Shown here: positions 33,571-43,459 of the stretch, in pieces | How the letters are laid out: every line of letters starts with the position of its first letter | How positions within the stretch are numbered: position 1 is the first letter of the stretch | NCBI RefSeq assembly: GCF_916618885.1 | Contig: NZ_CAKAKH010000001.1 | Coordinates: forward strand, 1,240,001 to 1,304,000 | Direction: 5' to 3' | Source of the DNA: Marinilactibacillus sp. Marseille-P9653 | GTDB lineage: Bacteria; Bacillota; Bacilli; Lactobacillales; Carnobacteriaceae_A | DNA length: 64,000 nucleotides | Program-made: the position numbers and the translations under genes | The notes under the pieces: model-generated | The model's database searches: none | What the model was told of the DNA's origin: nothing | What the model saw: only the letters and a program-made list of their open reading frames with translations

Positions 33571-33611
33571 TTGAATAGTAGAATTTATGATAATTGTTAG
33601 GAGGAGTTGTA

Positions 33612-34724
33612 TTGATCAATTATTGGATCTACTTCATACTTTTGACTGTGACTTGGATATCTGCACTTTTCTTTCAAGATAGTTCAGTTTTAGGATTATT
33701 TTATTCAGTACTTTTTTTTGCGGGATATAATCTTATACCATTAGTTTTTCTTTTTTTGAAAAAAGTGTTTTTTATCGGATTACTTTTATGTACCGTCTTA
33801 ACTTTTATTTCAGTGGAGTTGAATCCTTTTGTCTGGTTGATTCTGGTTATTCTTGCGGCACAATTCTATGAGCTTTTAAAACCTTACATACTCTATTGTC
33901 TGATCGTTCTCAGTTTCTTGATCATACTATTTCCAGCTTTTAACGCGCTAAATTCAAAGATGATCGTGTATCAACTTATACTCGTAGGTTTATCTATCCT
34001 ATTGATTGGTCAGCTAAATAACCAAAAGAAACAGCGATTTAAAATATCTTTGGATAATACTAGAATGTATAATGAGTTATCTTCTATCAAGCGACAGCAA
34101 TTCCTCAATGACGAGAGTATTCGCCTGGAAGAAAGAAGTCAGATTGCTAGAGAAATTCATGATGCAGTGGGGCATAGATTAACTGCTTTACTGATGCAAC
34201 TAGAAGTCGCTCGTTTACAAGCTAAAAACAAAGAAAGTGCTGAACAATTCAATGCTCTCAAGAAATTAGCTCAGATGAGCCTTTCGGATACGCGAAAGGC
34301 TGTTAGTACATTAAAGTCGCAAGAACAATCTGGTCTCCAAGCTGTAATTTTTCTGATTCGTAAATTAGAGACTGAAAGTCATTTGAGACTTACAATGACC
34401 TTGAAGTCTGGTGTTTTGAACAGTAGGTTAAACAATGAACAATCGGTTACACTTTACCGAGCGATTCAGGAGGCCCTCACCAATATGATGAAACATAGTG
34501 ACCGAAAACGTGCTGAAATCGTTTTTGAAATCATCGCGGAAAGAGAATTGAAATTTTCAGTAAAACATATTCAATCTGAAAAAGTGATCGTAAAAGAAGG
34601 CTTTGGTTTATCCAATATGAAAGAACGTCTGGAAAGAATCGATGGGAAGTTGTCTATTCAAAATAATGATAATCACTTCATTGTGATTGGCCAATTCCCA
34701 CTGGAGGTGAAGCAAAATGATTGA
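33612..34724 (+). CDS. Sensor histidine kinase, NarL-system (HisKA_3) type
   Basis: The 370-aa membrane kinase has about five or six closely packed N-terminal helices (to about residue 140) with almost no extracytoplasmic loop. A coiled-coil linker, the HisKA_3 phosphorylation helix (REIHDAVGHRLTALL, phospho-His183) and a HATPase domain (EALTNMMKHS, GFGLSNMKERLERI) follow. The absence of a sensor domain suggests it detects membrane perturbation or its partner transporter. The start is TTG 33612, five bases after AGGAGGAG; the frame is open to 33594, but that would cover the ribosome site. It overlaps the response regulator gene by 8 bp. The order kinase, regulator, ABC ATPase and two permeases matches LnrJK-LnrLMN of Bacillus. 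Confidence 0.85.
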   Translation: MINYWIYFILLTVTWISALFFQDSSVLGLFYSVLFFAGYNLIPLVFLFLKKVFFIGLLLCTVLTFISVELNPFVWLILVILAAQFYELLKPYILYCLIVLSFLIILFPAFNALNSKMIVYQLILVGLSILLIGQLNNQKKQRFKISLDNTRMYNELSSIKRQQFLNDESIRLEERSQIAREIHDAVGHRLTALLMQLEVARLQAKNKESAEQFNALKKLAQMSLSDTRKAVSTLKSQEQSGLQAVIFLIRKLETESHLRLTMTLKSGVLNSRLNNEQSVTLYRAIQEALTNMMKHSDRKRAEIVFEIIAERELKFSVKHIQSEKVIVKEGFGLSNMKERLERIDGKLSIQNNDNHFIVIGQFPLEVKQND

Positions 34725-35355
34725 TATTTTGATAGCTGAAGACCAAACCATAGTGAGACAAGGGTTAAAAATCATGCTCGAGACGGACAAAGAATTCAGA
34801 GTGACTGGACAAGCAGAAAATGATCTTCAGGCAGTAGAGCTTTGTGATCAAAATCGATATGATTTAATCTTACTTGACATTCGAATGCCGAAAATGACCG
34901 GGCTCGAAGCAGGGAAAAGAATTCGTGATAAATGGCCAGATGTTACCATATTAATGCTGACCACATTTAATGATCAGGACTATGCATTGGAAGCTTTGAA
35001 AAATCGTGCCAATGGGTATTTATTAAAAGATGGAGATGCGGATGAGCTGATCAAGTCGGTTAGAAGTGCTTTGAATGGAGGATTGGCCATTGAAGATCAA
35101 GTAGCTGCGAAATTAGTCCCCTCCTTATTGAAGCATCAGAGTGAACGGTTAGAAGTGGACGAAGCGTTAACTGAACGGGAAATAGCCATTATAAAAAGAA
35201 TCGGCGAAGGTATGAACAATCATGAAATAGCAGAATCGCTTTTTCTTTCAGTTGGGACAATCAAAAATCATATATCGACTATTTTGTTGAAGTTAGAATT
35301 GAGAGATCGAACGCAGATAGCGATTTACGCTATAAAACACCAGTTAACAAACTGA
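34717..35355 (+). CDS. Response regulator, NarL/LuxR type
   Basis: The 212-aa product has a receiver domain (about 1-120, phospho-acceptor Asp54 in LILLDIRMP, conserved Lys in YLLKDGDADEL) and a C-terminal LuxR-type helix-turn-helix (about 148-208, LTEREIAIIKRIGEGMNNHEIA). The start overlaps the end of the kinase gene by 8 bp, so the two are translationally coupled. It probably activates the ABC exporter genes immediately downstream, separated by a terminator. Target and inducer are inferred from gene order. Confidence 0.88.
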   Translation: MIDILIAEDQTIVRQGLKIMLETDKEFRVTGQAENDLQAVELCDQNRYDLILLDIRMPKMTGLEAGKRIRDKWPDVTILMLTTFNDQDYALEALKNRANGYLLKDGDADELIKSVRSALNGGLAIEDQVAAKLVPSLLKHQSERLEVDEALTEREIAIIKRIGEGMNNHEIAESLFLSVGTIKNHISTILLKLELRDRTQIAIYAIKHQLTN

Positions 35356-35418: not shown

Positions 35419-35454
35419 TTATACTAAAGACAAATAAAGAAAGGAGTGAACAAG

Positions 35455-36387
35455 ATGCTAGAAGTACGAGAGATATCTAAATCATTTAAAAAAACAGTTG
35501 CAGTCGATCATTTAAGTATGTATATAGAAAAAGGAGAATCTATTGGTTTGTTGGGTCCTAATGGAGCAGGTAAATCAACGACTATTTCTATGATTTCAAC
35601 ACTATTACCTCCAGATAATGGAACGATTGAATACAAAAATATCAATATTTTAAAAAATGCAAGCACGATCAGACCTGTACTAGGTGTCGTCCCGCAAGAG
35701 ATTGCACTATATGAAGAATTGTCAGCTTACGAGAATATGCGATTCTTTGGGAAGATATATGGGCTAAAAGGAACTGCTCTAAACAGTAAGGTGGATGAGG
35801 TATTAAAGCTCGTTGGTTTAACAGAGCGGCAAAAAGAACCTGTGAAAAATTATTCTGGTGGCATGAAAAGACGAATTAATTTAGCGGTAGCGCTTCTTCA
35901 CGATCCTGAAGTTCTGATTATGGATGAACCTACTGTAGGGATTGACCCGCAATCTAGAAATCATATATTGGATACGATTCGTAAACTGAACGTTGAGCAT
36001 AACTTGACCATACTCTATACCAGTCATTATATGGATGAAGTTGAAAAATTATGTGACCGAATCTATATTATGGATGACGGAAAAATTGTGGCTTCCGGTA
36101 CAAATAAAGAGTTGAAGAGTTTGTTATCAAATGAAGAGACTGTGGAAATTGAAGTGAAAACTAAAAAAGTAGAATTTGCAGAGGTATTGAAAAAACACCC
36201 TGATGTCAATCAACTATATGAAACAACTAAAGGTTATAGATTGATAGTGTCTAAAAGGGACGAACTCCTTGTAGACATCTTTCGTCAAGCCGCTCTTCAC
36301 GAAGTAACAGTAACCGGAATCCAAGTCAAAGAACCCACTCTTGAAGATGTGTTTTTACATTTAACAGGTAGGAAACTTAGAGATTAG
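35455..36387 (+). CDS. ABC exporter ATPase (LnrL-like)
   Basis: The 310-aa ATP-binding subunit has Walker A GPNGAGKSTT (about 34-43), Q-loop VPQEIAL, signature NYSGGMKRRINLA, Walker B VLIMDEPTVGIDP and the H-loop SHYMDEVE. A C-terminal extension of about 90 residues is typical of antibiotic and Na+ exporters of the NatA/BcrA/LnrL group. The start is ATG 35455, nine bases after AAAGGAG; an in-frame GTG at 35446 abuts the ribosome site. It is followed by two ABC-2 permeases. With the upstream NarL-type system this forms a likely membrane-active antibiotic response module. Confidence 0.88.
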   Translation: MLEVREISKSFKKTVAVDHLSMYIEKGESIGLLGPNGAGKSTTISMISTLLPPDNGTIEYKNINILKNASTIRPVLGVVPQEIALYEELSAYENMRFFGKIYGLKGTALNSKVDEVLKLVGLTERQKEPVKNYSGGMKRRINLAVALLHDPEVLIMDEPTVGIDPQSRNHILDTIRKLNVEHNLTILYTSHYMDEVEKLCDRIYIMDDGKIVASGTNKELKSLLSNEETVEIEVKTKKVEFAEVLKKHPDVNQLYETTKGYRLIVSKRDELLVDIFRQAALHEVTVTGIQVKEPTLEDVFLHLTGRKLRD

Positions 36388-36399
36388 GAGGTGTTCTCG

Positions 36400-37668
36400 A
36401 TGAAAGAGTTGATAAAAAAAGATTTTCTTTTACTTTCAAAAAATAAAAGTGAATTGATCGAACTACTACTCACACCTTTTCTATTGATTTGTATTTTAGG
36501 ATTTGCTCTTGGTAATCTGATGAACAACAGTGCAGAAAACACTATTGAGACAACTATCGTTGGTTTTGTGAACGATCAAAACGATGAAACAGTTAAGGCG
36601 GATTTTGAAGCAAAACTGGATGAGGAAAATGTGACTGATTTAGAGTACCAGCAGTTATTAGAAGCATCGTCTGAATTAGACCCAGTCTTTCATTTGAAAC
36701 AGTTGTTTGAACAAGAAGAGATAAAAGAGCTCTTTCATTTAAAAGCTTTTGAATCAATCGATTCTGCTCAGAAAGCGTTAGAAAATGACGAAATTGGCGG
36801 TATTATACATGTTCCAGACCAATTCAGTTTATCTGTATTGAATTCGACTTTATTTGGGGAAGAATTAAAAACAGAACTTAATGTGATGACACAAGATCCG
36901 AATCAAATTAGATCCATTACACTGACTAGTGTTTTAGATAGTTTTATTAACGAATATAATTTTCAGACATCCATAGTTCCATTCGCTGGAGATACAACAA
37001 TTGATGATACCTCACGATATGGTGAAACTCTGACAGTTTCTACTGAAGAGCCTATCAGCGCTTTTCAATACTATACGCTAGGAATGGGTGTGTTTTACGC
37101 TTTAAGCATTAGTACAATCATAGCAAACCGTAGCTTTAGGGAAAAAGAAACACATGTATTTGCAAGAATTATGATTTCGAATCAATCACCTTTAAGTTAC
37201 CTGATGAGTAAGATGGTTTCCAGTTCACTTATTGCTTTTATGCAGTTAAGTTTGTTATTTGGCCTTTCCAATTTAGTTTTCGGAATTTTTTCAGGACGAC
37301 CCAGTTCCTTTTGGTTAGATATTGCATTAATAACAGCCATTTATTCTTTATTGATAGGAAGTATAACTAGCTTGCTTACCTCTATATCACTATATGGAAA
37401 CGAAATTAAAATTGTAAATTTCTTTGGATCTTTCACTGCTGTACTAGCTTTTCTTGGAGGTAGCTTTACACCGACAGAAAACTTTTCTGATCTGATTAAG
37501 ACGATAGGGGATTGGACGCCTAATGGTGCAACATTGACATCATACTTGCAACTACTAATGGGGTTCGAAATACAAGAAATTTTACCTCTTTTAGCGAGAG
37601 TGATCGGCATGAGTATCGTCAGTTTGACCGTGGCTGTTCTATTGTTTCCGAAAAGGAGGTTAGATTAG
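36400..37668 (+). CDS. ABC-2 type exporter permease (LnrM-like)
   Basis: The 422-aa permease has the ABC-2 layout: one N-terminal helix (about 18-40), a large extracytoplasmic acidic region (about 45-220) and then about five helices. The start is ATG 36400, seven bases after AGGAGGT; the upstream in-frame GTG overlaps that site. It lies 12 bp after the ATPase gene and its stop directly precedes the second permease gene. It probably pairs with that second permease as a heterodimer. Confidence 0.83.
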   Translation: MKELIKKDFLLLSKNKSELIELLLTPFLLICILGFALGNLMNNSAENTIETTIVGFVNDQNDETVKADFEAKLDEENVTDLEYQQLLEASSELDPVFHLKQLFEQEEIKELFHLKAFESIDSAQKALENDEIGGIIHVPDQFSLSVLNSTLFGEELKTELNVMTQDPNQIRSITLTSVLDSFINEYNFQTSIVPFAGDTTIDDTSRYGETLTVSTEEPISAFQYYTLGMGVFYALSISTIIANRSFREKETHVFARIMISNQSPLSYLMSKMVSSSLIAFMQLSLLFGLSNLVFGIFSGRPSSFWLDIALITAIYSLLIGSITSLLTSISLYGNEIKIVNFFGSFTAVLAFLGGSFTPTENFSDLIKTIGDWTPNGATLTSYLQLLMGFEIQEILPLLARVIGMSIVSLTVAVLLFPKRRLD

Positions 37669-38751
37669 ATGATAACTGTATTTCTTATGCAATGGAAAAG
37701 AACCCTTAAGAGCCCGTTATTGCTCATATTGTTTTTTGGATTGACCATACTGATGGTCAATGTAGTGGCTGGCACCCAAGGTGGTCAAAAGTTGGAAGTA
37801 GCAGCTTATAGTCATAATCTATCAGAGAATCAAATACAATATAAATTAGATAGATTGAATCAAAGTGATACGATTAGTATTCATTTAAAAGAAAAAGATC
37901 AAGTAGAAGAAGATATCAAAATGGATAAGTATGGGTTTGCATTAGTACTTGAAGAAGATAATTATCAGATTCTTGTAGGAAGAGAAACGGAGCAGTTACC
38001 TGTCGTGGATCAATATCTTCGTAGAGTTTATAGTGAAGAAAATCGGCTCAGAAGCATTCAAGAGCAAAACCCAGAACAAGTCATCGAAGTTAAGGACCAC
38101 CTATTGTTAAACGTAAGCTCGTTGTCTGATACTGGTAATAGCATTGTGAATTTATCGGTCATGTTAGGTATGACCTTCTACTTCACGATATTTTCAATTC
38201 TTTTTCTTATGACAGATTTATTTGAAGACAAAAGAGATGGTATTTGGAACCGACTGATCTTTTCTCCAATTTCAAGAGCTAAAATCTATCTTGGACATCT
38301 TTTCTTTTATTTCAGCCTAGGAGTTTTGCAAATCACAGTACTATTAACGTTATTGAGTCAGATGCTTTTACTTGATTTAAATATCAACTATCTCGTAGCA
38401 ATTCTAATCACATTATCGTTTATTCTTTGTATTGTATCTCTAGGGATATTACTCATCGCCATGGCAAAAACTTCTTCAGGATTAATGGTCTTGATTCCCA
38501 TTGTCGCAACTTCTACAGCCATGTTAGGTGGGGCTTTTTGGCCGCTACAAGTGATTGATAATCGTTTTTTATTATTTGTAGCAGAATGGATGCCTATCAA
38601 ACAAGCTGTATACGGAATCATTGAAGCAACTGTTCAGTATAAAAGTTTCCTTGAAGCAATACAGCCTGTCGGAATTTTGCTATTGATGAGCTTATTCTTT
38701 ATGAGTATAGGCATCAATATGATGGAAAGAGTGAGTGATTCTCAATTATAA
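37669..38751 (+). CDS. ABC-2 type exporter permease (LnrN-like)
   Basis: This 360-aa second permease has an N-terminal helix, an extracytoplasmic region (about 45-155), and about five C-terminal helices containing the ABC-2 stretch FEDKRDGIWNRLIFSPISRAK. AAAAGGAGG precedes the ATG, which abuts the stop of the preceding gene. The operon ends in a hairpin that is also the apparent operator of the following TetR gene. The exported or expelled compound is unknown. Confidence 0.83.
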   Translation: MITVFLMQWKRTLKSPLLLILFFGLTILMVNVVAGTQGGQKLEVAAYSHNLSENQIQYKLDRLNQSDTISIHLKEKDQVEEDIKMDKYGFALVLEEDNYQILVGRETEQLPVVDQYLRRVYSEENRLRSIQEQNPEQVIEVKDHLLLNVSSLSDTGNSIVNLSVMLGMTFYFTIFSILFLMTDLFEDKRDGIWNRLIFSPISRAKIYLGHLFFYFSLGVLQITVLLTLLSQMLLLDLNINYLVAILITLSFILCIVSLGILLIAMAKTSSGLMVLIPIVATSTAMLGGAFWPLQVIDNRFLLFVAEWMPIKQAVYGIIEATVQYKSFLEAIQPVGILLLMSLFFMSIGINMMERVSDSQL

Positions 38752-38763
38752 AATAAAAACTAC

Positions 38764-38826
38764 AAAACATTGACCGACCTGGTCAGTAGTGGTAAACTCT
38801 CACCATGACCAGGTCGGTCAGTTTTT
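38764..38826 (+). terminator. Terminator hairpin of the ABC-2 operon, coincident with TetR operators
   Basis: TGACCGACCTGGTCA (38771-38785) and TGACCAGGTCGGTCA (38806-38820) are perfect 15-bp reverse complements. Flanking AAAAC and GTTTT extend the stem, and T follows. For read-through RNA from the upstream operon this is a strong intrinsic terminator. Confidence 0.7.
38770..38820 (+). promoter_or_regulatory. TetR-family promoter-operator region
   Basis: Each 15-bp arm is itself a palindrome of the form TGACC, five bases, GGTCA, giving two dimer sites 35 bp apart centre to centre. A promoter, TTGACC (38770-38775) and TAAACT (38793-38798) with 17-bp spacing, has its -35 inside the left site and its predicted start at the edge of the right site. 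Transcripts from this promoter carry only the right arm, so they would not form the terminator. Confidence 0.65.
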
Positions 38827-38853
38827 ATAGAGGATGATCGAGGTGAGTAAGTA

Positions 38854-39495
38854 TTGAACGAAGCGTTTAATAAATTACCAGATGGAAAAAAGTCTGCTAT
38901 CCTTAAAGCGGCTTATAATGAGTTTGAGGAAAATGGCTTTAAAAGGGCTTCTACAAATAAAATTGCTGCTAAAGCTAGAATTGGCAAAGGGACTTTGTTT
39001 TATTATTTTGGAAACAAGAAAAAACTATATCAGTATCTGATTACGACTTCTTTTAACATTGCTTATGATGAATATTTAATGCAGATAAATTTCGATAAAA
39101 CAGATTATTTTGATCGTTTAGAAAGTATAACTGATCTCAAACAAAAAGTAAGCAATCTTTATCCCAATGAATTGAGCTTCTTATCTAAACTTCTTTTAAC
39201 TCCAGATGATATGGAATGGTCGGATGTTATACAGGAGAAACGTGAAGAATCAGAAAAAGTATGGGAAAAGGTTTTGACTGAAAATATCGACTTCAGTAAA
39301 TTTAGAGAAGATTTGCCAAGGGAAAAAGTACTGAACTTAATCAAATGGGGACTTGAAGGATACCGTAAAGAACTGGAGCAGAAAGCAAACTCCTTAGGAA
39401 ATTCAACTGTCTTTTCAGAAGAAGAGATCAAGTATTACTATCAAGAATACAATGATTATATCGATTTATTAAAAAGAACATACTATAAATCATAG
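38854..39495 (+). CDS. TetR/AcrR-family transcriptional repressor
   Basis: The 213-aa regulator has an N-terminal helix-turn-helix (about residues 10-58, with GFKRASTNKIAAKARIGKG and LFYYFGNKKKLY) and a divergent helical ligand-binding domain. The TTG start has GAGGTGA seven bases upstream. It is the first gene of a transcript encoding an ABC exporter ATPase and a large permease. Two palindromic sites cover its promoter, so it is very likely an autorepressor relieved by the exporter's substrate. The effector is unknown. Confidence 0.88.
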   Translation: MNEAFNKLPDGKKSAILKAAYNEFEENGFKRASTNKIAAKARIGKGTLFYYFGNKKKLYQYLITTSFNIAYDEYLMQINFDKTDYFDRLESITDLKQKVSNLYPNELSFLSKLLLTPDDMEWSDVIQEKREESEKVWEKVLTENIDFSKFREDLPREKVLNLIKWGLEGYRKELEQKANSLGNSTVFSEEEIKYYYQEYNDYIDLLKRTYYKS

Positions 39496-39511
39496 TCAGG
39501 GAGTGAGTTAT

Positions 39512-40414
39512 ATGAGTTTAGTTTCAGTACAGGGGTTATCTAAATCTTTTGGTAAAACAGAGGCTTTAAAAGAAGTTAACTTTAGCATGGAAAAAGGGGA
39601 AGTTTTAGGCTTCATAGGACCAAATGGTTCAGGCAAATCGACAACCATTCGAGTACTTTTAGGACTATTAAAAGCAGATAGTGGAAAAGTACGTATATTT
39701 GACCAGGATGTATGGTCTGATTCTGTGGAGATACACAAACGTGTTGCTTATGTTCCTGGAGATGTCAATCTCTGGCCCAATCTAACTGGTGGAGAAGTTA
39801 TTGACCTTTTCTTAAGTATGAGAGGACAACAGGTAGATTATGATAAGATAGCCTCTTTAATCAAAGCATTTGATTTTGATCCTACAAAGAAATGTAGAAG
39901 TTATTCTAAAGGAAATCGTCAAAAAGTGGCGTTGATCGCTGCATTTGCTTCTGATGCAGACTTATACATATTGGATGAACCCACTTCTGGTTTAGATCCA
40001 CTACAAGAACGTGTTTTTCAACAACAAGTGGCAACCGTTAAAAAGCGTGGGGCTAGCGTCTTGTTATCTAGCCATATCTTATCTGAAGTTGAACAACTAT
40101 GTGATACGATTGCGATTATCCGTAACGGAAGCATTGTGGAAGCAGGAACACTTAATGATCTTAGACACCTTACCAGAACAGAAATTAGGTTACAAACACA
40201 AAAATCTTTGAACCATTTCAGTGATGTTAGTTGGATTCACCACTTTGTCCAAAAAGGAAACCAAGCCGTTTTTCAAATAGACTCCAATAAAATGGATCAA
40301 TTGATCCAGGCCTTACAAGGAATGGACGTTCAATCACTGGAAAGTGTTCCGCCTAAGTTAGAAGATCTATTCATGCGCCATTATGAAACGACTGGAGAGG
40401 CGGGGGAATCATGA
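39512..40414 (+). CDS. ABC exporter ATPase, TetR-controlled
   Basis: The 300-aa ATPase has Walker A GPNGSGKSTT, signature SYSKGNRQKVAL, Walker B LYILDEPTSGLDP and H-loop SSHILSEVE. The long C-terminal tail is typical of the drug-export ABC group with large two-repeat permeases (tetronasin/polyketide-resistance type). The start is ATG 39512, eight bases after AGGGAG; an in-frame GTG at 39503 is inside that site. Its stop overlaps the permease start by 4 bp. Confidence 0.88.
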   Translation: MSLVSVQGLSKSFGKTEALKEVNFSMEKGEVLGFIGPNGSGKSTTIRVLLGLLKADSGKVRIFDQDVWSDSVEIHKRVAYVPGDVNLWPNLTGGEVIDLFLSMRGQQVDYDKIASLIKAFDFDPTKKCRSYSKGNRQKVALIAAFASDADLYILDEPTSGLDPLQERVFQQQVATVKKRGASVLLSSHILSEVEQLCDTIAIIRNGSIVEAGTLNDLRHLTRTEIRLQTQKSLNHFSDVSWIHHFVQKGNQAVFQIDSNKMDQLIQALQGMDVQSLESVPPKLEDLFMRHYETTGEAGES

Positions 40415-42006
40415 AATCTATAACCGGATTTAAATTATTAACTCGCTTTGTCTTAAAAAAAGAATGGAAAGTTTTATTACTTTGGGCACTTGGCTGCTTG
40501 ATGTTTGTTTTTGTGGGCGTTTTTGCATTTGTAACCATTTATCCTTCTGCGACTGACCGCACAGCTATGGCAGTTGCAATGTCTAATCCGGCTATGGAAG
40601 CCCTTTTCGGAAAACTGATTGGAGGAGATAACTATACCATTGGTGCAATGTATTCACATACAATGACTATCCTCACATTGTCACTTTTTTCAGTAGCTTC
40701 GATATTAATGATGATTAGAAATACCAGAGCTGAAGAAGAACACGGTATGATGGAATTAATTCAATCATTTCCTATAGGAAGACTCGCACATTCGACGTCT
40801 GCTTCATTACTGTTAATAGGTTACAACATATCATTAGCACTACTGACTGGATTGCTCCTCTTATTGATGGGGGATTCGAGTATGGATTTGAACGGATCTT
40901 TTCTTACTGGAGCAATGTATGGCGCAATCGGATTGTTTTTCGGAAGTCTCGCCTTACTCGCAGCTCAATTATCCAGCAATAGTAGAAGTGCTACGATGAC
41001 CTGTTTTTCACTGTTAGGAGCTGCCTATATTATTAGAATCATCGGGGATACCGGTCAGGAATATTTGAATGTTCTTTCTCCACTAGGTTTGCTATACAAA
41101 TCAGAACCGTTTGTCTCCAATTACTGGTGGCCTGTAGGAATAATCTTACTTGTAACCTTTGTTATTTTGGGACTTGCCTTTTATTTCCAGACAAAAAGAG
41201 ATTTAGGTGCTGGACTATTGCCAGATAAAACGGGTAAACACTTAGCGTCTTCTTTTTTGAAACAACCGATAGGCTTTGTTTTCCGATTGATGAAAACACC
41301 TTTAATCGCTTGGACTATAGGGTTGGTTCTACTTGGGATTACTTACGGTTCGGTTATGGGAGACGTGGAAAGTCTGCTAGCTGGTAATGAATTGATTGAG
41401 CAAGTGATCAGTAGTGATGCTTCTCAATCCATTGTCACACAGTTTATTTCCATTATTATGGGCGTATTGGCTATAGCAGCTGTTATACCATCTATTCAAG
41501 TCATCGTTAGATTGTCTTCAGAAGAAAAACATGGACGCTTACAGCATTTACTTGTTGGAACGAAAAGCAGAAGTCAGATTTTATTGACTTTTATAGAGGT
41601 TAGTTTGATTTCTTTGGTAATGATTCAAGGAGTACAAATTGCTGCATTTGGAGTTACAGCAAGTTTAGGTCAGAGTATTCTAAGTTTCAGAGAAATTTTT
41701 GAAAGTGGTCTTGTCTATTTGCCCGCTATGGCTGTGATTTTGAGTATCTCTATCTGTCTATTCGGATGGTTTCCGAAGAAAATATTCTTAACTTGGTTAG
41801 TGCTAGGTTATTGCTTCTTTATACTATATTTTGCCAATTTATTTGAAATACCCGAATGGATAAAAGGACTTTCTCCGTTTTACCACATCCCAGAAAGATT
41901 GGTTGGAGAAAACAGTTCAACTGTTCTTCTATATTTAAACCTTGTTTCTTTATCTTTTTCTTTAGTAGGAATAATCGGTTTCAAAAAAAGAGATACGATT
42001 CATTAA
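40411..42006 (+). CDS. Large ABC exporter permease, tetronasin-resistance type
   Basis: The 531-aa polytopic protein has about twelve hydrophobic helices in two repeats of six, the layout of single-gene permeases partnered by one ATPase in polyether/polyketide resistance exporters. The ATG overlaps the ATPase stop (ATGA), and GGCGGGG precedes it. A charged cytoplasmic stretch (RNTRAEEEHGMMELIQSF) after the second helix and a matching one in the second half (SSEEKHGRLQHLLVG) fit the ATPase contact sites. It is the last gene of the TetR operon. Confidence 0.82.
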   Translation: MKSITGFKLLTRFVLKKEWKVLLLWALGCLMFVFVGVFAFVTIYPSATDRTAMAVAMSNPAMEALFGKLIGGDNYTIGAMYSHTMTILTLSLFSVASILMMIRNTRAEEEHGMMELIQSFPIGRLAHSTSASLLLIGYNISLALLTGLLLLLMGDSSMDLNGSFLTGAMYGAIGLFFGSLALLAAQLSSNSRSATMTCFSLLGAAYIIRIIGDTGQEYLNVLSPLGLLYKSEPFVSNYWWPVGIILLVTFVILGLAFYFQTKRDLGAGLLPDKTGKHLASSFLKQPIGFVFRLMKTPLIAWTIGLVLLGITYGSVMGDVESLLAGNELIEQVISSDASQSIVTQFISIIMGVLAIAAVIPSIQVIVRLSSEEKHGRLQHLLVGTKSRSQILLTFIEVSLISLVMIQGVQIAAFGVTASLGQSILSFREIFESGLVYLPAMAVILSISICLFGWFPKKIFLTWLVLGYCFFILYFANLFEIPEWIKGLSPFYHIPERLVGENSSTVLLYLNLVSLSFSLVGIIGFKKRDTIH

Positions 42007-42158: not shown

Positions 42159-42488
42159 GTGATCAGTAGTGACGTAAGTAGAGGATATAATGACTCATTT
42201 ATCTTATCTATTTTAAATGAAGGCGATTCCTACGGATACGAGATCTCTAAACAAATTAGGGAAAGAACAAATGGTCAGTATGTAATGAAAGAAACGACGC
42301 TGTATTCTGCCTTTACTCGGTTGAAGTCTAAAGGATATATCACATCTTACCCAGGGAAAGAAACGCAAGGAAGGAAACGAACGTATTATAAGATTACAGT
42401 AGGTGGAAAAGGACTGTTATTAGAAAAGCAAAAGGAATGGCAGTTGACAAAATCTGTTGTAGACATATTTTTTGGAGGGGAAATATAA
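42159..42488 (+). CDS. PadR-family transcriptional regulator
   Basis: This 109-aa winged-helix regulator of the short PadR group has the motif ILSILNEGDSYGYEISKQI, the recognition region KETTLYSAFTRLKSKGYI, and the beta-wing ETQGRKRTYYKIT. PadR repressors commonly control a membrane or efflux gene encoded next to them and respond to antimicrobials or cell-envelope stress. The start is GTG 42159, preceded by AGGGGTGGG. Its stop overlaps the start of the next gene, so the pair is coupled. Repeats in its promoter suggest autoregulation. Confidence 0.9.
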   Translation: MISSDVSRGYNDSFILSILNEGDSYGYEISKQIRERTNGQYVMKETTLYSAFTRLKSKGYITSYPGKETQGRKRTYYKITVGGKGLLLEKQKEWQLTKSVVDIFFGGEI

Positions 42489-43459
42489 TGAATACAATAA
42501 AAGAGTATGTGGATAAAATGTTTAAACATGTTGTAAAAACACAGGAGACTGAGCAATTAAAAGTGGATATTCTAGCAAATATGGAGGATCGATTTATCGC
42601 ATTAAAAGAAGAAGGGGCCTCTGAGAACGAAGCGATTGGAACAGTAATTGTGGAGTTTGGTAATATTGAAGAAGTGCTAGAAGAGATGGGATTGAATGAG
42701 TATCAAAAATCAAATAATGATCTAGATGATGTGATGGTAGTAGAGATAGAAGATGCTTATGAGTATATAGAAGCCCGAAGAAAAGCGGGATTAGGTATCG
42801 GACTAGGTGTTCTTGCTTGTTGTATTGCTCTTGGTGGTTTTCTCGGTCTATTCGGATTATTCTCATTAGAGTCCTACGGTATTATTTTAGGCTTGATATG
42901 GATGTTCCTGTTTGCAGTCGTTGGCATTTCACTATTTATTATCCAAGGTTACCGATTGACGAGTTATAAAGAATACGAGCTTCCTTTCATTCTTGTGCCT
43001 GAAGCGAAAAGAAGGATTCAAGAAATGATGAATGCTTATAAAAAATCTTTCATATTTAGTATCGTAATCGGAGTAGCATTATGCATATTTTCTCTAATTC
43101 CAGTTTTGTTTACAGCTTTATCGTCCATAGATGAATTTATAGTCGTGGGTAGTGGAACGATGTTCGTGATAGCTGGAGTCGGGGTCTTATTGTTTATCTA
43201 TACTGGAATGATTTGGACGGGCTATCAAAAATTATTAGCTAAAGGCAAATCTGTTGAAGAAGTATATGAAGTTCGGGAGAAGTATAAGCGAAATACAAAA
43301 ATAACGAATATACTTGAAAATATATACTGGCCAATTTTACTAGTAATCTACTTTTCCTTGAGTTATTTTTCTGGATCATGGGCTTGGTCATGGATCATTT
43401 TTCCTATAGGTGGAATTTTACAAAGTACAATCGAATCTATTTTTGGTATTGAAGATTAA
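42488..43459 (+). CDS. HAAS-domain membrane protein
   Basis: The 323-aa product begins with a HAAS/DUF1700-like helical cytoplasmic domain (about residues 1-75, with EQLKVDILANMEDRFIALKEEG and FGNIEEVLEEMG). Six or so membrane helices follow in a DUF-type arrangement. HAAS domains usually occur in membrane proteins paired with a PadR regulator, as here, and the pair is thought to sense or counter envelope stress. ATG 42488 has GGAGGGG seven bases upstream and overlaps the PadR stop. The molecular activity is not known. Confidence 0.8.
   Translation: MNTIKEYVDKMFKHVVKTQETEQLKVDILANMEDRFIALKEEGASENEAIGTVIVEFGNIEEVLEEMGLNEYQKSNNDLDDVMVVEIEDAYEYIEARRKAGLGIGLGVLACCIALGGFLGLFGLFSLESYGIILGLIWMFLFAVVGISLFIIQGYRLTSYKEYELPFILVPEAKRRIQEMMNAYKKSFIFSIVIGVALCIFSLIPVLFTALSSIDEFIVVGSGTMFVIAGVGVLLFIYTGMIWTGYQKLLAKGKSVEEVYEVREKYKRNTKITNILENIYWPILLVIYFSLSYFSGSWAWSWIIFPIGGILQSTIESIFGIED

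Follow-up and report, generated by a model that had tools for sequence, protein, structure and literature searches.

Between two exporter operons of Marinilactibacillus sp. Marseille-P9653 lies a short inverted repeat whose position raises the question of whether the same bases could end transcription of the upstream operon while also starting and repressing that of the downstream one. A preliminary description of this DNA had proposed such a shared use. Our comparative analysis of the locus, carried out in a window of 64,000 nucleotides (the whole stretch of DNA analysed), suggests that a single element of ~57 bp (38770–38826) very probably unites three functions: terminator for the upstream ABC-2 operon, promoter for the tetR-ABC operon, and a pair of TetR operators.

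Anatomy of the element between the two operons

The upstream operon encodes an ABC-2 exporter, comprising an ATPase (35446–36387), a first permease (36391–37668; both identified from the open reading frame list and Pfam), and, as its last gene, a 360-aa ABC-2 type permease (37669–38751, + strand; PF12698, E = 6e-27). A histidine kinase/response regulator pair at 33594–35355 of the window precedes this operon and may control it. On the other side of the element, also on the + strand, lies the gene for a 213-aa TetR-family regulator (38854–39495; TTG start; PF00440, E = 7e-14), which is preceded by the ribosome site GAGGTGAG at 38840–38847 and whose product has the TetR-family proteins 1zkg, 2id6, and 1z77 as its nearest solved structures (E about 1e-16). 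Its presumed targets, a DrrA-like ABC ATPase and a 531-aa membrane protein for which no family match was found, follow at 39503–42006 (+ strand), constituting the downstream exporter. A PadR regulator and a membrane protein lie 3' of this second exporter (42159–43459 of the window) and occupy the same place in Alkalibacterium (L135:6770–8067).

The element carries two 15-bp copies, the candidate left operator O1 (TGACCGACCTGGTCA, 38771–38785) and the candidate right operator O2 (TGACCAGGTCGGTCA, 38806–38820), neither assigned to a strand, which are exact reverse complements of each other and are each a palindrome of TGACC and GGTCA around a 5-nt centre, just as first described. A repeat search returned them as an inverted repeat with 21-nt arms and 90% complementarity. 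Among the matches listed for the 2.55 Mb genome, no exact TGACCN5GGTCA site other than O1 and O2 occurred, and the paired-site pattern was present in 4 of 148 relatives, with zero matches for the reversed control. The permease stop codon lies 19 nt before O1, and the tetR start codon lies 33 nt after O2 and 84 nt after the start of the element; a search of the 19-nt gap between permease stop and O1 for a separate terminator found none. RNA folding of 38750–38835 yielded -36.8 kcal/mol, compared with a shuffled mean of -14.7 (z = -7.5; 0/200 shuffles), placing a stable G+C-containing stem, with O1 as its 5' arm and O2 as its 3' arm, at the 3' end of the upstream operon. Directly 3' of the right arm stands GTTTTTATAG, kept in most loci of the Marinilactibacillus and Alkalibacterium clade, and the T-run GTTTTTATA (38821–38829, + strand) completes a predicted intrinsic terminator, consistent with the earlier proposal that the arms fold as RNA ahead of a T tail. 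The genome-wide motif counts, the fold z-score, and conservation together rule out a chance origin of the O1/O2 repeat. The 20-nt separation of the arms is long for an intrinsic terminator, the loops of which are usually short (about 3–10 nt), and counts against this assignment; in the minimum-energy structure, an apical helix of GUGG (38789–38792) with CACC (38801–38804), spanning 38789–38804 on the + strand, closes the hairpin loop around the -10 and, if it forms, shortens the loop to 7–8 nt.

A sigma-A type promoter of tetR is predicted at 38770–38798 on the + strand, with its -35 (TTGACC, 38770–38775) beginning 1 nt before O1 and running inside it, followed by a 17-nt spacer and by the -10 (TAAACT, 38793–38798; extended -10 TG at 38790–38791) in the hairpin loop. 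The predicted transcription start of the tetR-ABC operon, 38805 (+ strand), lies 7 nt past the -10 and one base before O2, in line with the preliminary placement of the -35 in the left copy and of the start at the right copy. Promoter-like matches occur in this region at chance level (17 found versus 19.9 expected), although the position of the tetR match is conserved across the TetR family. RNA from the upstream operon would carry both arms and could fold into a stem of about 17 bp with a small apical helix, followed by the U-run, which would stop upstream transcription at about 38822–38828. RNA begun at about 38805 should lack the left arm, because the predicted start lies past it; carrying the right arm only, it would form no stem and would continue into tetR. 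TetR dimers at O1 and O2 would cover the -35 and the start site, thereby blocking initiation. It is rather unlikely that TetR, when occupying O1/O2, also reinforces termination as a roadblock, coupling operator occupancy to termination. If the two were coupled, ligand-induced release of TetR would switch on the second exporter and pass more upstream RNA, linking the exporters, and heavy upstream transcription would in turn occlude the embedded promoter.

Paired candidate operators across the TetR family

For a comparison across about 90 TetR homologues, 94 upstream regions were scanned, from which 82 loci were retained after duplicates and one deletion were dropped (11 from the clade of Marinilactibacillus and Alkalibacterium and 71 others). 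A TGACC/GGTCA site pair, 32–38 bp apart (mostly 33), was present in 85 of the 94 upstream regions, the nine without it including one that was wrongly placed (L024). Of the 82 loci, 71 had TTGACC as the six bases where O1 begins (11/11 in the clade, 60/71 elsewhere), and 77 had an acceptable -10 at 16–18 nt, versus 15% at shifted control offsets; in each of the 11 clade loci, the first base of O2 lay 1–2 nt past the predicted start. Because the positions of TTGACC and the -10 are conserved relative to O1, the site pair overlaps both the -35 and the point at which transcription of the regulator's operon would begin. The TetR gene lies directly downstream, and the palindromes overlap the promoter elements and are conserved with the regulator, as in an autoregulated TetR operator pair. 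In TetR-family autorepression, the regulator's own operon has two dimer sites lying over its -35 and its start, and the predicted sites here cover the same two positions. These paired operators would represent ordinary autorepression, recurrent across this TetR family in Bacillota, and the ancestral part of the element is, on this comparison, the paired-operator promoter common to the whole family. To our knowledge, the usual TetR paired operators are not arms of an upstream gene's terminator.

Outside the clade, the cores of O1 and O2 displayed an inverted complementarity of 2.73, versus 2.21 when shuffled (middle three bases, 1.37 versus 0.88), and no excess of direct identity over the shuffled cores. 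The inverted excess was equal beside co-directional and divergent genes (L043–L110). Because inverted cores are favoured throughout the family, even without any need for a terminator, inversion alone is not diagnostic of one, and arm inversion as proof of a terminator was ruled out. This is one correction to the logic of the preliminary description: the arms do co-vary, as detailed below, but their inversion is in itself no evidence of termination. Given that the excess exists in the rest of the family, some of the arm pairing has another cause; core inversion probably reflects the symmetry of the repressor–promoter complex or a mutational bias, and would have been available for later use in a stem.

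Predicted terminator features and natural variants in Marinilactibacillus and Alkalibacterium

The gene order permease, element, tetR, and ABC genes is shared by 4 Marinilactibacillus loci, including this one, and 8 Alkalibacterium loci. In all 12, the upstream neighbour is a co-directional ABC-2 permease gene that ends 14–47 nt ahead of O1, and a search of the sequence between the two found no other terminator. The stem was analysed in 11 of them, leaving out A. thalassium (L039), in which one arm and the promoter are deleted; about 150 nt upstream of its tetR, O1 and the promoter have been lost, apparently through a deletion that fused O1 to O2. Close to a contig end in M. piezotolerans DSM 16108 (L033/L136), the element has its left part replaced by unrelated sequence, perhaps as the result of an insertion.

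The co-variation of the arms that the preliminary description had pointed to was borne out by an alignment of the related intergenic regions, in which 95.2% of cells were paired across the 11 clade loci, with slid controls at 15–45%, and both sides had changed at 4 of the 15 stem pairs (7 cells). None of 500 shuffles reached the observed value in any of three measures (paired cells, cells with changes on both sides, covariation score), and RNAalifold, unaided, predicted the same helix. The co-varying core types include GACCT/AGGTC, ACCCT/AGGGT, AACCC/GGGTT, and ACTCT/AGAGT. This co-variation is supportive of a terminator without being proof alone, and the T-run, the folding of the spacer, and the half-decayed O2 of some loci appear to weigh more. 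In an 8-nt tail window, the median T count of the clade was 7, versus a mean of 3.0 in the 71 other family members, with weaker T-runs in L040 and L036. At least four Watson–Crick pairs in the core together with at least five T in eight were present in 10 of 12 clade loci versus 4 of 71 others (Fisher, 2e-8, ignoring relatedness, as do all Fisher and Mann–Whitney group comparisons here). The clade comprises two related genera of one family, and such comparisons rest on few independent origins. The spacer folded on itself below -1 kcal/mol in 11/11 clade loci versus 6/71 others (mean z, -1.96 versus +0.25). The spacer, which contains the -10, belongs to neither operator, and its helices vary by species (GUGG/CACC, UAAGUG/CACUUA, GAUAAA/UUUAUC, GAAGU/ACUUC, GAGU/ACUC); spacer folding seems to be the evidence least explained by protein binding. 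Arm pairing, T-run, and spacer folding are weak or absent outside these two genera. The conserved promoter layout, the T-run, the spacer folding, and the absence of another terminator lend support to the shared operator, terminator, and promoter originally proposed, and it is, jointly with that threefold reading, very likely that the Marinilactibacillus/Alkalibacterium lineage, in which the promoter directly adjoins a co-directional permease gene, acquired the terminator as an addition.

A natural dissection of the element comes from three loci: L034 of A. putridalgicola, L041 of Alkalibacterium sp. 20, and L135 of a further Alkalibacterium-group genome (G020). Instead of TGACC, the decayed loop-side half of their O2 reads TAAAC, TAAAG, and TAATC, respectively. 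All three retain the T-run and the O2 half complementary to O1 (with one A–C mismatch in L041), and each has a third operator-like copy farther downstream. Because L034 and L041 cluster in the TetR tree (98/99), their O2 copies probably decayed in a single event. Between the permease and the ABC genes of L135 there is no TetR gene (gap, about 390 nt); despite the loss of tetR, O1, the half-decayed O2, and a T7 remain, with the hairpin right after the permease. In a locus of another genus (L122), where the same permease occurs without this TetR adjoining, an unrelated hairpin follows. Third operator-like copies 3' of the T-run were observed in L034, L035, L038–L042, and L135, and may have freed O2 to decay.

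Elsewhere in the family, a separate terminator precedes the operators at many loci with a clear co-directional upstream gene (e.g., L046, L059, L062, L071, L087, L100) and, judged by eye, at L103; upstream gene calls outside the clade are based on open reading frames, some of which, short or of low complexity, are doubtful (e.g., L109). A class-wide pattern search for paired operators with a T4 tail in 398 genomes matched only this locus and one non-complementary case and thus found no independent origin. In Salibacterium (L045), a co-directional gene ends 22 nt upstream, the spacer folds, and the T-run is short; this locus and that of Tepidanaerobacter (L106) are weak candidates for independent origins.

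These variants bear on whether the element might be a pair of TetR operators only, in which case its palindromes would be arranged symmetrically around the promoter, and both hairpin and T-run would be by-products without a terminator role. Palindromic pairs do exist family-wide, with cores preferentially inverted even beside divergent genes, and in Paraliobacillus salinarum (L052:2920–2985) a perfect inverted operator pair, and hence a perfect stem, is followed by T7 beside a divergent gene, with no co-directional neighbour, so that a stem and T-run can arise without terminator use. Nevertheless, this explanation, which we regard as improbable, leaves unaccounted for the T-run, the spacer folding, the lack of another terminator in the 19-nt gap, and, in L034, L041, and L135, the persistence of the pairing half and the T-run where O2 has decayed as an operator. 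A mutational process, such as template switching or hairpin-guided correction at inverted repeats, could keep the arms identical in place of selection for termination, which would fit the family-wide excess of inverted, rather than direct, core similarity; we give it very little credence, as it fails to predict the T-run, the species-differing spacer helices, or an O2 that keeps only its pairing half. That the element is a terminator only, with a chance promoter-like sequence and the true tetR promoter or operators elsewhere, is barely credible: its stem with a U-run is strong and promoter-like matches in the region are not above chance, but the same -35, -10, and operator layout stands before tetR in about 70 other-genus loci without terminator features, and the element begins as close as 84 nt before the tetR start codon.

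Relation to known systems and significance

The combination of terminator, promoter, and operator pair favoured here has partial counterparts. In E. coli, the frd terminator overlaps the ampC attenuator, the ampC promoter lies inside the last frd gene, and the RNA of that promoter meets the terminator, resulting in attenuation (Grundstrom & Jaurin 1982, as described in PMC6045580). As far as that account goes, our element is alike in that the probable terminator of the upstream operon falls within the regulatory DNA of the gene that follows, with promoter and terminator interleaved, and differs in that the promoter lies inside the stem, the RNA is predicted to lack one arm, and the arms are candidate repressor operators. 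The downstream RNA of frd/ampC crosses the whole terminator, whereas the start predicted here, 38805, lies past the left arm. In B. pseudomallei, the nlpD1 terminator (TERM 264; -35.7 kcal/mol) adjoins a mutant penA promoter, which arises by mutation just upstream of the terminator, involves no repressor operators, and, being nearby, weakens nlpD1/penA termination (PMC6045580). Both loci have a strong terminator, here a predicted one, between two genes (-35.7 there, -36.8 here) and a close-set promoter that escapes termination or, here, would do so, but the stem arms here are candidate repressor operators. Inverted pairs of DNA uptake sequences have been proposed as terminators, a role that is called contentious in a paper citing the proposal (PMC2346458); they would likewise be a protein-recognised motif that, when inverted, doubles as a terminator stem, but in that description they are genome-wide repeats unrelated to promoters, whereas here a single regulatory locus contains an embedded promoter. 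Our literature search for operator–terminator overlap found no direct precedent beyond ampC/frd and penA. What is new is the combination of paired TetR operators with a terminator–promoter overlap in the style of ampC/frd, each part being already known.

Such an element carries a warning for annotation, since terminator predictors and operator predictors may each detect half of it. It would constitute a compact natural insulator, in which constraints at the DNA level (repressor and sigma factor) and at the RNA level (the terminator fold) act on the same bases. The related loci would form an evolutionary series, from paired operators only, through dual use, to a separation of roles once a third operator appears, and with this series the cost of overlapping regulatory codes, and how they arise, can be tested in short synthetic constructs.
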